Positions 26,911 through 30,183 of a stretch of 64,000 nt of DNA are shown here, one piece after another. The DNA comes from Pseudomonadota bacterium (GTDB lineage: Bacteria; Pseudomonadota; Gammaproteobacteria; Burkholderiales; Thiobacillaceae): contig JAJZPG010000013.1 in assembly GCA_021811235.1 (NCBI GenBank), positions 1 through 64,000 of the forward strand, given 5' to 3'. The notes beneath the pieces were generated by a model. It made no database searches, was not told the origin of the DNA, and was given only the letters and a program-made list of their open reading frames with translations. Every line of letters begins with the position of its first letter. Positions within the stretch are counted from its first letter, which is position 1. Made by a program: the position numbers and the translations under genes.

Positions 26911-27718
26911 GGAGCTTTACGTAGATGGGGGCGAACGGCTCGGCCTGGGTGACGTCGAGCAGGGTTTCCTTGGTCAGTTCCAGCACCGCGAGGAAGGTGA
27001 CCACGAGTTCGTGCACGGTCGACGATTCCGGGAACAAGTCCTTGAATTCCATGAATTCGCCGGGAACGAGCCGCTTCAGGATGCGGCTCATGTGCTCGCG
27101 GATGGAGAGTTCCTGGCGACCGATGCGGTGATGGGTGCGGTTCTTCGCGCGCGACAGGATCGCCAGCCAGGCGGCGGCGAGTTCCTCGGGGTGGATGCTC
27201 GGCATGCGCCTGGCAGCGGCCGGCAGGAACACGCTCACGGTGTCGAATTCGCGCCCGGCCTGCGGCAGCGCGTCGAGCGTCTGGCCGGCCAGTTTCATCT
27301 GCTCGTATTCCAGCAGGCGGCGCACCAGTTCGGCCCGCGGGTCCTCGCCCTCGTTCGCCTCCTCGGCCTGCTCGCGGCGCGGCAGCAGCATGCGCGACTT
27401 GATGTCGATCAGCATCGCCGCCATCAGGAGGTATTCCGCCGCCAGCTCCAGCCGGGTCGCGCGCGCCGCCTCGACGTAGGCCATGTACTGCTTGGTGAGT
27501 GCCGCCATCGGGATGTCGAGCACGTCCAGGTTCTGGCGGCGGATCAGGTAGAGCAGGAGGTCGAGCGGGCCCTCGAAGGCGTCGAGGAAGACCTCGAGCG
27601 CGTCGGGCGGGATGTAGAGATCCTGCGGCAACTCGGTGAGCGGCTCGCCGCGCACCTTGATGACGGGTACGTGGGGCGTTTCCTGGTGCGGCGGATCGAG
27701 AAGCTCGGCTTCGGTCAT
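26891..27718 (-). CDS. scpA: Condensin kleisin subunit ScpA
   Basis: 275 residues. The N-terminal kleisin helix region [36 protein letters not shown] binds the Smc neck. The following [20 protein letters not shown] is the family signature. The C-terminal winged helix (about 195-265, [30 protein letters not shown]) binds the Smc head. Works with Smc and ScpB in chromosome segregation. ScpA and ScpB overlap by 20 bases and are read from the same minus-strand operon, with rluB behind. The start at 27718 yields a short leader of 30 residues before the kleisin region. Confidence 0.95.
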
Positions 27719-27801
27719 CCGGGCATTTTACCCGACTCCCCTGCCGGCCCCGGGGTATTTGGCGCAGGAAATCCTGGCCGGCAGCCTTTCCGCCAAGGCG
27801 C

Positions 27802-27830
27802 TTGCATTTTACCGAACGGTCAACTAGTAT
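27802..27830 (+). promoter_or_regulatory. Promoter of the TetR gene with operator inside the spacer
   Basis: TTGCAT (27802-27807), a 17-base spacer and TAGTAT (27825-27830) fit a sigma-70 promoter. The palindrome ACCGAACGGT (27811-27820) lies wholly inside the spacer. The -10 is only 7 bases before the ATG at 27838, so the mRNA would be nearly leaderless. The same palindrome core recurs twice before tusA, so autorepression is likely. Confidence 0.7.
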
Positions 27831-27837
27831 CCGGCGC

Positions 27838-28443
27838 ATGAACCTCGCAACCGACACCCGCACCCGCATCATCGCCGCCGCCAAGCCGCGCTTCCACTCG
27901 CGCAGCTACGCCAACGTGGGCATCCAGGAAATCTGCGAGAGTGCCGGGGTGCAAAAGGGCAGCTTCTATCATTTCTTCCCGTCCAAGCGCGACCTGGTGC
28001 TGGCGGTGATCGACGAGTTCGCCGACGACTGGGCCAACGGCTTCGTCGCCGAAGCCTTCGACCCCGCCCTGCCGCCGATGGAGCGCATCGACTACCTGGT
28101 CGACGCCGCCTATTTCTGGCAGAAGTCGATCAAGCAGGTGCACGGGCGCATGCTCGGCTGCATCTTCGGCAATCTCACGCTGGAAGTCAGCACCCAGGAC
28201 GACATCCTGCGCGCCAAGCTGCTGGCCATTTTTTCGCGCGCCAAGTCGCGCTTCAAGGACACCCTCGAAGAAGCCGTCGCGGCCGGCACCATCGCCCCGC
28301 TCGATGCCGACCGCACCGCGGAAGCCATGCTGGCCTACCTGGAGGGCGTGATCCTGCTGGCCAAGTCGCAGAACGATCCCGAGGTGATCTATCGCCTGGG
28401 CCCGGCGATCAAGACTCTGCGCATCGAAGCATCCGGCGGCTGA
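27838..28443 (+). CDS. TetR/AcrR-family transcriptional repressor
   Basis: 201 residues. Helix-turn-helix domain at about 8-55: TRTRIIAAAKPRFHSRSYANVGIQEICESAGVQKGSFYHFFPSKRDL with the GSFYHFF recognition helix. The C-terminal half is an all-helical ligand-binding domain (YFW, GCIFGNLTLE, AYLEGVILLAKS) of the TetR_C_33/AcrR-like type. The upstream promoter holds the palindrome found also before tusA, so it probably represses itself and the downstream tusA-dsrE2 pair. The inducer is unknown; a reactive sulfur species would fit the context but is only inference. It precedes tusA by 180 bases. Confidence 0.9.
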   Translation: MNLATDTRTRIIAAAKPRFHSRSYANVGIQEICESAGVQKGSFYHFFPSKRDLVLAVIDEFADDWANGFVAEAFDPALPPMERIDYLVDAAYFWQKSIKQVHGRMLGCIFGNLTLEVSTQDDILRAKLLAIFSRAKSRFKDTLEEAVAAGTIAPLDADRTAEAMLAYLEGVILLAKSQNDPEVIYRLGPAIKTLRIEASGG

Positions 28444-28484
28444 TCGACATGCCAGGCAGCCGGTTTTTTTTCGCGCTCGATTGT

Positions 28485-28494
28485 ACCGACCGGT
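28485..28494. promoter_or_regulatory. TetR-type operator copy 2, ACCGACCGGT
   Basis: Palindrome ACCGACCGGT followed by C and TAGTA, matching the arrangement at 27811 (core, then TAGTA a few bases on). It lies 130 bases before the tusA ATG, and may mark an upstream promoter. Confidence 0.6.
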
Positions 28495-28590
28495 CTAGTA
28501 GCTGGCGTGCCCATCCCCTTCGTGGCATCCGCCACTCCCCTTCCCTGCAGTTCAGCCTTTTCACCCGGCAATTTTTTGCCGATTTTCTTG

Positions 28591-28600
28591 ACCGGACGGT
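28591..28600. promoter_or_regulatory. TetR-type operator copy 3, ACCGGACGGT
   Basis: Core ACCGGACGGT, preceded by G and followed by CATCTACTAC. It lies 11 bases before the AGGAGG ribosome site of tusA, where a bound repressor would block a promoter or transcript start. Confidence 0.65.
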
Positions 28601-28623
28601 CATCTACTACAGGAGGTTTCACC

Positions 28624-28857
28624 ATGAGCTCGAACGCAACCCAGACCCTGGACACCCGCGGCATGAACTGCCCCCTGCCCATCCTGCGCACCAAGAAGGC
28701 CCTGGCTGAACTTGCCCAAGGCGAAACCCTCGCCGTCACCGCCACCGACCCCGGCTCGCTCAAGGACATGCAGGCTTTCTGCAAGCAGACCGGCAACGAA
28801 CTGGTCGCGTCGAGCGCGAACCAGGGCGAGTTCGAATTTCTCATCCGCAAAGCCTGA
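28624..28857 (+). CDS. tusA: TusA-family sulfurtransferase/sulfur carrier
   Basis: 77 residues. AGGAGG at 28611-28616 precedes the ATG at 28624. The family motif LDTRGMNCPLPILRTKKAL contains the catalytic Cys (Cys16) in CPxP form, which carries a persulfide sulfur. The rest is the compact beta-alpha-beta fold (LAVTATDPGSLKDMQAFCKQTGNELV). In sulfur oxidisers TusA homologues pass sulfur among rhodanese, DsrE2 and heterodisulfide reductase-like enzymes; in others it feeds tRNA thiolation. The immediate dsrE2 neighbour favours the dissimilatory role. Three operator-like palindromes connect it with the TetR gene upstream. Confidence 0.93.
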   Translation: MSSNATQTLDTRGMNCPLPILRTKKALAELAQGETLAVTATDPGSLKDMQAFCKQTGNELVASSANQGEFEFLIRKA

Positions 28858-28867
28858 GGAGACGATC

Positions 28868-29476
28868 ATGGGCGCAAACGAAAAAAGCATCGCAACCCTA
28901 GACCCGGCTCTGCTCGACCAGTGGTTCGACCAGCGCTTCGAAGCGAAGATGGCCGAACGCGAAGCCGCGCATGTGCCGTCGCTGTCGATCATCGCCACCA
29001 AGGGCACGATGGACTGGGCCTACCCGCCCTTCATCCTCGCCTCCACCGCCGGCGCGCTCGGCTGGGACGTGTCGGTATTCTTCACCTTCTACGGACTCGA
29101 ACTGCTGAAGAAGGACCTGCACCTCGAGATCAGCCCGCTTGGCAATCCCAGCATGCCGATGAAGATGCCGTTCGGCCCGCAGTGGCTGAAGGACATCAAC
29201 TGGAAGGTGCCGAACGTCGTCATGGCCGGCATACCCGGGTTCGAGAAAGTGGCGACCGGGCTGATGGAGCAGACGGTGAAAAGCAAGGGCGTCGCCAGCA
29301 TCGACGAATTGCGCAGCGCCTGCCTCGAGGCCGACGCCAAGCTTTTCGCCTGCCAGATGACGGTGGACCTGTTTGGCTATTCGCAGGACGAGTTCATCCC
29401 CGAGATCGCGGGCTGGATCGGCGCGGCGAGCTTTTTGCCGCAGGCGCAAAAGTCGGATGTGTGTTTGTTTATCTGA
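28868..29476 (+). CDS. dsrE2: DsrE2-family sulfur-trafficking protein
   Basis: 202 residues. After a short Glu/Asp-rich helical leader, SLSIIATKGTMDWAYPPFILASTAGALGWDVSVFFTFYGLELLKK is the DrsE_2 domain (DsrE/DsrF-like fold, membrane-associated subgroup). Later segments include KVPNVVMAGIPGF and LFACQMTVDLFGYSQDEF with a Cys that is a candidate sulfur-binding residue, plus DVCLFI at the end. Such proteins accept sulfur from or donate it to TusA. It starts 10 bases after tusA, so the two form one transcript; a rhodanese gene, common in the third position, is missing here. No enzymatic activity is assigned. Confidence 0.88.
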   Translation: MGANEKSIATLDPALLDQWFDQRFEAKMAEREAAHVPSLSIIATKGTMDWAYPPFILASTAGALGWDVSVFFTFYGLELLKKDLHLEISPLGNPSMPMKMPFGPQWLKDINWKVPNVVMAGIPGFEKVATGLMEQTVKSKGVASIDELRSACLEADAKLFACQMTVDLFGYSQDEFIPEIAGWIGAASFLPQAQKSDVCLFI

Positions 29477-29583: not shown

Positions 29584-30183
29584 TCATTTGACGAAGAAGG
29601 CCTCAGCTTCCTTTACGACCTCAGCATAGTAGTTGAGGGCAGTCTCGGCCGTAGCCGAAAGGTCCTCTGGATTGATGGAGTTCCCATTGTGGGTAGTGGG
29701 CACTTCATATGTCCTTCCTCGATTCACGACACGGGCCATTCTGGCTCTCGTCGGTTTGAATTCGAACTTGAGAGGTTGCTTAGAGCGAACGTGAATGCCA
29801 CGCTCGCTCGATCGGATTTCAAGATGCTCGATAAGGACCGAACCATCAGGCTGTACGCCGACACCATCTGCGAGTCCTATTCCAACACTGCCGGGTTCTC
29901 GCTCGGTAATCTCATTGACTGTGTGCTCTTCCGCTCCCCGGGCATTGCATAGGTACGCAAGAAGAGGATCCTTCCGACGGAACTCCTCGATGGGCGCAGC
30001 CCAATTGCCAAATTTTGGGCTTTTCCCGTAGTGCGCCTTAGTCTTGTTCCATACCCGCTCAATGCGGTGCAAGAAAGCTTTCCAGTGCTCTTCGAACTCG
30101 TCAAGAGAGAGGGCTGACCTCATACGCGCGATTGCCTCGCCCGCGCGCTCAAGCTCTGCATGTGGGGCTGTGGAACGTTGCAT
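29584..30183 (-). CDS. Hypothetical protein of unrecognised family, low-G+C for the region
   Basis: 199 residues from ATG 30183 (an in-frame TGA lies just upstream). No signal peptide or membrane segment is visible. The N-terminal 40 residues look helical (SLDEFEEHWKAFLHRIERVWNKTKAHYG), the middle contains RARMARVVNRGRTYEVPT and the end is ALNYYAEVVKEAEAFFVK. The base composition is visibly poorer in G+C than its neighbours (dsrE2 and lon), including the flanks from about 29570 to 30340, suggesting recent acquisition. No helper gene or known mobile element is adjacent. I do not recognise a family. Confidence 0.75.
   Translation of the reverse strand: MQRSTAPHAELERAGEAIARMRSALSLDEFEEHWKAFLHRIERVWNKTKAHYGKSPKFGNWAAPIEEFRRKDPLLAYLCNARGAEEHTVNEITEREPGSVGIGLADGVGVQPDGSVLIEHLEIRSSERGIHVRSKQPLKFEFKPTRARMARVVNRGRTYEVPTTHNGNSINPEDLSATAETALNYYAEVVKEAEAFFVK

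Follow-up and report, generated by a model that had tools for sequence, protein, structure and literature searches.

Does a TetR-type repressor govern, through one shared operator, both its own gene and the sulfur-carrier genes tusA and dsrE2, and what kind of signal would release it? These questions are raised by a locus in the window analysed here, which is the whole stretch of 64,000 nucleotides. Its genes tetR, tusA and dsrE2 lie in that order on the + strand, and scpA adjoins them in the opposite direction. Judged by its regulator, which is 96% identical to that of a Thiobacillus MAG and 94% identical to that of T. thioparus DSM 505, the genome is of the Thiobacillus kind. The features of the locus are the following:

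27802-27830, + strand: putative tetR promoter with TTGCAT (27802-27807), a 17-base spacer and TAGTAT (27825-27830), from the sequence
27811-27820, + strand: candidate operator site 1, ACCGAACGGT, at -27 from the tetR start (exact sequence match, conservation)
27838-28443, + strand: tetR, predicted repressor of the NemR/AcuR class, 201 aa (TetR_N, TetR_C_13, residues, fold match)
28485-28494, + strand: candidate operator site 2, ACCGACCGGT, 42 bases past the tetR stop codon (exact match, present in most genus loci)
28566-28581, + strand: small terminator-like hairpin CGGCAA-TTTT-TTGCCG just 5' of site 3 (sequence scan)
28591-28600, + strand: candidate operator site 3, ACCGGACGGT, past the hairpin and ahead of the tusA ribosome site (exact match, genus alignment)
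28611-28616, + strand: tusA ribosome binding site AGGAGG (sequence, genus alignment)
28624-28857, + strand: tusA, sulfur-carrier protein, 77 aa (PF01206 at 8.1e-26)
28868-29476, + strand: dsrE2-like gene, 202 aa (PF13686 at 1.6e-46)

On the 3' side of dsrE2, an open reading frame of 199 aa (29584-30183, - strand) matched nothing in Pfam or NCBIfam at E 0.001.

A sequence-only reading of this DNA had named three copies of one motif, and all three are exact (27811-27820, 28485-28494 and 28591-28600). Within the window, the core ACCGNNCGGT has five matches versus 1.44 expected, a number equalled in 1 of 100 shuffles, and the two remaining matches (58166 and 61696) have a CG centre. Compared with a GAC-n6-GTC palindrome, the outer G on the left is replaced by T at sites 1 and 2. 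Each copy had also been described as followed by C and, 1 to 3 bases later, by TASTA. This spacing fails at site 2, where TAGTA stands directly after the C (0 bases). Moreover, in relatives the TASTA of site 2 is mostly replaced by TAGCGA or similar. Since it is not retained there, TASTA lies outside the operator, and its inclusion in the motif had to be abandoned.

Site 1 lies inside the 17-base spacer of TTGCAT/TAGTAT, and the CTTGCA of this promoter is shared without change by all 28 genus loci aligned. Only 7 bases separate the -10 hexamer from the tetR ATG (27838), so the tetR mRNA would start at or beside the ATG, leaderless or nearly so. The suggested placement of site 1 in a promoter with a nearly leaderless start is thus borne out by the hexamers, the spacer and the distance to the ATG, but a stricter sigma-70 scan of positions 27600-28700 did not include TTGCAT/TAGTAT in its output. 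The same scan returned no sigma-70 promoter around sites 2 and 3 or for tusA, and the supposed tusA promoter region between these two sites therefore found no support in it. The hairpin at 28566-28581 is retained in most of the 27 aligned genus loci, with attenuator, terminator and promoter element as its candidate roles.

Conservation among relatives carries most of the argument. From 104 loci, 32 duplicates were removed, which left 72 loci with non-identical TetR proteins; many of these are close kin from one genus, so that the number of independent events is smaller than 72. More independence can be claimed for the gammaproteobacterial loci (65-79% identity) and for a group at 43-51% identity. 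Allowing at most one mismatch and scanning 40 start positions, we found a site upstream of tetR in 68 of the 70 non-identical relatives with upstream sequence (56 exact), and none by this criterion in L096 and L211. The site starts at -27 (43 sites), -26 (18) or -28 (7). Likewise, 58 of the 59 loci with tusA and/or dsrE2 downstream have at least one site in the gap behind tetR (45 exact). The one locus with no gap site is L205, where only 30 bases separate tetR and dsrE2. Site density was 0.0120 per base in the upstream and gap stretches and dropped to 0.00021 elsewhere in these loci. The comparison with orthologous tetR-tusA loci, proposed as a check on the motif, hence came out in its favour.

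Within the genus, 28 aligned loci show a nearly constant CTTGCA-TTT-ACCG-nn-CGGTC-AACTA, and the sequence 5' of CTTGCA is unalignable. The tetR-tusA gap of 27 genus loci has mostly kept its two operators, a T-run, the small hairpin and the ribosome site; the exceptions are site 2 in L045 and L046 and site 3 in L049 and L050, which are lost or altered. Across the family, the regulator is present in 37 of 117 genomes (E 1e-20), and a strict 16-mer, TKDACCGNNCGGTCWW, lies at most 1 kb from the regulator gene in all 37. Among the 80 family genomes without the regulator, isolated matches to the 16-mer occur in 26, and two separate sites within 1 kb occur in none. For five strict matches (G008:C66, G091:C62, G109:C60, G063:C6 and G070:C27), the flanking stretches contained no TetR, TusA or DsrE2 relative.

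Counts over the window's own genome must be read with more care. It had been suggested to scan this genome for the motif, and the outcome depends on how the motif is written. The core plus C (ACCGNNCGGTC) is not enriched, with 31 + 19 matches versus 98 + 100 for the reversed control, which makes the bare core unfit for a regulon search. The strict 16-mer has exact matches in the 2.85 Mb genome only at the three sites, a count that is not independent because the 16-mer was written from these three sites plus relatives. As the reversed control of the 16-mer has 2 + 2 matches in the same genome, it is the placement of the strict 16-mer that is striking, not its count. Nine further places in the genome differ from the 16-mer by one mismatch. 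All nine lie within stop-to-stop open frames of at least 1 kb and are thus probably coding, for which reason a wider regulon built on them was rejected. By these matches, the regulon in the window's own genome looks like a one-locus regulon.

What kind of protein would bind these sites? The TetR protein has a TetR_N and a TetR_C_13 domain (Pfam, 50.4 and 53 bits, both above the cut-offs), the same two domains as NemR itself. It belongs to the TetR family by Pfam and by fold, and not to the ArsR family. Its top NCBIfam model is AcuR (NF051457), at 85.6 bits versus a cut-off of 247. A structure model (mean pLDDT 83.6, pTM 0.71), used for fold matching only, placed 3bru of Rhodobacter sphaeroides first among PDB entries, followed by PA2196 (4l62, 3rd3), with NemR (4yze) at rank 7; the 4l62 structure of PA2196 was solved with operator DNA. 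On the basis of domains and fold, we assign the regulator to the NemR/AcuR class (TetR_C_13).

Three residues, C33, C108 and K176, do not vary in any of the 67 relatives compared, ten of which have other cargo. C33 sits in the DNA-binding domain, where NemR has leucine. C108 belongs to a GC motif common to other TetR_C_13 proteins, which makes it weaker evidence than C33; residues of the C108 and K176 type may be widely shared in TetR_C_13. As all three are equally invariant in the ten relatives with other cargo, they do not point to sulfur specifically. C108 aligns to NemR C106, and K176 to NemR K175, which we take to be the sulfenamide partner of C106.

The layout of operator and promoter is familiar from described regulators. 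Escherichia coli nemR has TAGACCGACTGGTCTA at -27 before its start, a nearly identical operator at the same position. Its upstream GCTTGCACTAGACCGACTGGTCTACTACACTCCAACGCATG and the window's GCTTGCATTTTACCGAACGGTCAACTAGTATCCGGCGCATG form a gap-free alignment over 41 bases of promoter region, the operator being at -27 in both. However, the two proteins share 26% identity over 132 residues, which falls short of orthology, and NemR targets nemA and gloA (nemR-nemA-gloA) instead of tusA-dsrE2. Known triggers of NemR are N-ethylmaleimide, methylglyoxal and bleach; for bleach, oxidation of Cys106 is reported to be enough, and Cys21 and Cys116 have been proposed for electrophiles (PMC3739934). It acts via a thiol:sulfenamide switch (PMC9600549). 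AcuR of Rhodobacter sphaeroides (acuR-acuI-dddL) is an autorepressor with an inverted repeat, TAATAGAC-n6-GTCTATTA, over a leaderless promoter, and thus shares with our locus the promoter-overlapping GAC-n6-GTC repeat, the leaderless mRNA and the regulator gene in first position (PMC3017554). It differs in its co-inducer acrylate and its targets, and our protein stays far under the cut-off of the AcuR model in NCBIfam. AltR of Pantoea ananatis is a NemR-related repressor released by sulfur electrophiles (thiosulfinates) via Cys100, and its cluster contains inverted repeats in several positions; in contrast to our locus, its operator is CAATCTAC-n6-GTAGATTG and it targets allicin-tolerance genes (PMC13178969). 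The operator and promoter layout of the window is thus that of a known class of autorepressors, and the operator itself is not new.

The predicted target genes are well recognised at the domain level. TusA scores 90.1 bits with PF01206 (cut-off 28.6) and its active-site cysteine C16 is present in 46 of 46 relatives, while the NCBIfam TusA equivalog was missed (66.1 versus 78). DsrE2 exceeds the Pfam cut-off (PF13686, 158.5 versus 25) and narrowly misses NCBIfam NF047629 (209.3 bits versus 210). The same genome encodes a second DsrE2, 58% identical, in a rhodanese-tusA-dsrE2 cluster (G000:C23, L188), which makes the TetR-linked pair a second set. That cluster resembles our locus in having adjoining TusA and DsrE2 homologues, and differs in its rhodanese gene and in a DsrE2 above the NCBIfam cut-off (262.7). 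It adjoins genes, presumably soeBC, whose products are a DmsB-like Fe-S protein and a membrane anchor resembling DmsC. No exact ACCGNNCGGT was found in the 13 kb around it. DsrE2 relatives occur in 108 of the 117 family genomes, far more than hold the regulator.

The unit of tetR, operator, tusA and dsrE2 recurs in beta- and gammaproteobacteria, mostly in differing surroundings. Outside the genus, few further neighbours are common between loci, with one family common to L091 and L092. Regulators of at least 63% identity account for 55 of the 72 loci, and tusA and/or dsrE2 come next in 52 of them; in the others (L058, L097 and L099) the contig edge lies just 3' of tetR. Two loci have dsrE2 without a recognised tusA (L205, L206) and four a recognised tusA only (L048, L090, L210, L211). 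Of these four, L090 ends within tusA, and no dsrE2 was recognised in the remaining locus of L048, L210 and L211. Those of these closer relatives for which names were obtained come largely from sulfur-oxidiser groups.

Among more distant relatives, the cargo varies. A class-wide search found the regulator (E 1e-50) in 28 of 369 genomes drawn across the class. It supplied 16 of the 17 non-identical relatives with 43-51% identity, the remaining one being L195 from the family; seven of the 17 have tusA and/or dsrE2 and ten have neither. In eight of these ten, a site lies within 220 bases 3' of the regulator gene, the misses being L223 and L228. Seven of the ten encode a protein with a CxFC motif, as judged by eye. 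These AhpD-like proteins match an NCBIfam peroxidase-related enzyme model below its cut-off in L220 and L226, have no Pfam match in L220 and L225, and in L226 have 2pfx as best PDB match (E 6.3e-11). The cargo of L228 is an AhpC/TSA peroxiredoxin, and L217 has a nitroreductase 3' of the CxFC gene. L218 (G367:C13), from the group with tusA and/or dsrE2, combines a relative of the regulator with tusA, followed by ydhR-like and glyoxalase genes, an arrangement that resembles the setting of NemR with gloA.

In a tree of 46 regulators and NemR, from which 21 near-identical Thiobacillus rows were excluded, the 29 sulfur-linked rows of at least 63% identity form one group (100/100). The sulfur label needs 4 changes overall, in a tree where NemR is a very long branch and gives no reliable root. 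Taken together, the loci suggest that one NemR-like family swaps its targets (tusA-dsrE2, AhpD-like genes, peroxiredoxin) with operator and promoter layout retained.

The mechanism predicted to fit this evidence best is that of a NemR-like autorepressor with thiol-based release and transcription of tusA-dsrE2 as its output. TetR would bind the palindrome (about TTGACCGnnCGGTCAA) between the -35 and -10 hexamers of its own near-leaderless promoter, and also the further operator copies between tetR and tusA. Binding would limit TetR synthesis and shut off tusA-dsrE2. A thiol-reactive signal would then modify C108, which corresponds to NemR C106, and perhaps C33 as well, and the released locus would provide a second, inducible TusA-DsrE2 set beside that of the rhodanese-tusA-dsrE2 cluster. 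That one operator serves TetR autocontrol and tusA-dsrE2 had been proposed in the sequence-only reading: orthologous loci of like gene order do retain the motif, its strict form has no further exact match in the genome, and from this we infer binding, repression and transcription into tusA-dsrE2. We consider this link between repressor, operator and target highly probable, and the cysteine switch moderately probable. Our guess for the natural signal is a persulfide, a polysulfide or a polythionate, in other words a reactive sulfur species. Taken as a whole, we propose tentatively, as a possibility clearly below an even chance, that in sulfur oxidisers among the beta- and gammaproteobacteria a NemR-class protein that carries a second conserved cysteine, located in the DNA-binding domain, senses reactive sulfur species and switches on a second relay of TusA and DsrE2 as cytoplasmic sulfane sulfur or polythionate builds up.

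The sites themselves leave little room for other explanations. That they arose by chance, or that another regulator owns them, might be argued from the bare core, which is unenriched in the genome. Yet two results make this scarcely conceivable: their conservation at a fixed distance, by which a chance origin was rejected, and the lack of any operator-type site in the 3.3 kb locus of the single further TetR_C_13 gene found in this genome, which was thereby rejected as their owner. It is also very unlikely, if less so, that TetR regulates only itself, with sites 2 and 3 unbound or acting otherwise. The scan recognised no tusA promoter and individual gap sites are lost or altered in some loci, as this explanation would have it, but at least one gap site is kept in all but one of the loci with tusA and/or dsrE2, and most of the other-cargo loci also have a site close behind the regulator gene.

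The nature of the signal is less constrained. The same repressor and operators could respond, as with NemR, to electrophiles or oxidants in general (aldehyde, quinone, peroxide, hypochlorite), with TusA-DsrE2 serving thiol repair or persulfide buffering under stress and not lithotrophic sulfur flow. We regard this as quite possible, only somewhat below an even chance. The protein is of the NemR class and bears NemR residues, NemR itself answers to such compounds (PMC3739934), and in relatives at 43-51% identity the operator recurs together with AhpD-like, peroxiredoxin or nitroreductase genes, or with tusA plus ydhR-like and glyoxalase genes. However, a general stress sensor need not be linked to sulfur carriers, whereas tusA and/or dsrE2 follow in all 52 relatives of at least 63% identity with a continuing locus, and those with names are largely from sulfur-oxidiser groups. 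Moreover, the thiosulfinates to which the related AltR answers are sulfur compounds (PMC13178969). Alternatively, a reversible small ligand might free the repressor from a pocket, as acrylate does with AcuR, the cysteines being structural. This would agree with AcuR as the best NCBIfam model (though far under its cut-off), with 3bru as the top fold match and with the presence of the GC motif around C108 in other TetR_C_13 proteins. It is nevertheless unlikely, as general TetR structure hardly explains an invariant C33 where NemR has leucine. As the more distant relatives come with other genes, thiol-active or for detoxification, the reading of the predicted thiol-switched repressor as a sulfur sensor is no more than plausible, and the evidence for sensing of sulfur intermediates is circumstantial.

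The novelty of the locus is in its target genes and the conserved cassette, as the NemR-class operator was already known. Our literature search covered open-access papers and found there no description of this regulator and no paper with TetR and DsrE2 together. How sulfur oxidisers sense their cytoplasmic sulfur load is little known. In the available part of one source, the described repressors, sHdrR and SoxR of Hyphomicrobium denitrificans, are cysteine-based, sulfane-sulfur-responsive repressors of sulfur-oxidation genes, with tusA and dsrE3C among the genes tested (PMC12423496). In contrast to our TetR protein, these two belong to the ArsR family and are tied to sox and shdr genes (PMC12423496). 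If our proposal is true, sensing of sulfur by a TetR-type protein would be a control route apart from ArsR-type repressors. As a conserved and portable unit, regulator, operator and cargo offer genes that can be tested directly, together with a 16-base operator prediction and two cysteines as candidate sensors.

Some further observations concern neighbouring subjects. The other TetR_C_13 regulator of the genome (L230, G000:C55:6875-7141 plus flanks) is followed by a glyoxalase-type gene, as judged by eye. In G001, a different TetR-like gene (29% identity) stands next to relatives of tusA and dsrE2 that are arranged differently (L194, G001:C44:9000-18000); a second TetR-like gene (22%) is nearby, and no ACCGNNCGGT site occurs in the 9 kb. 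From this locus, TetR control of tusA/dsrE2 may have arisen more than once. As a separator of family genomes with and without the cassette, dsrA was uninformative, since 113 of 117 genomes match it at E 0.001 and 94 exceed the cut-off. The window's own genome has two dsrA matches over the cut-off (G000:C4:21736-22989, 504.3 bits; G000:C38:78145-79398, 495.7 bits), which suggests two dsrA copies.
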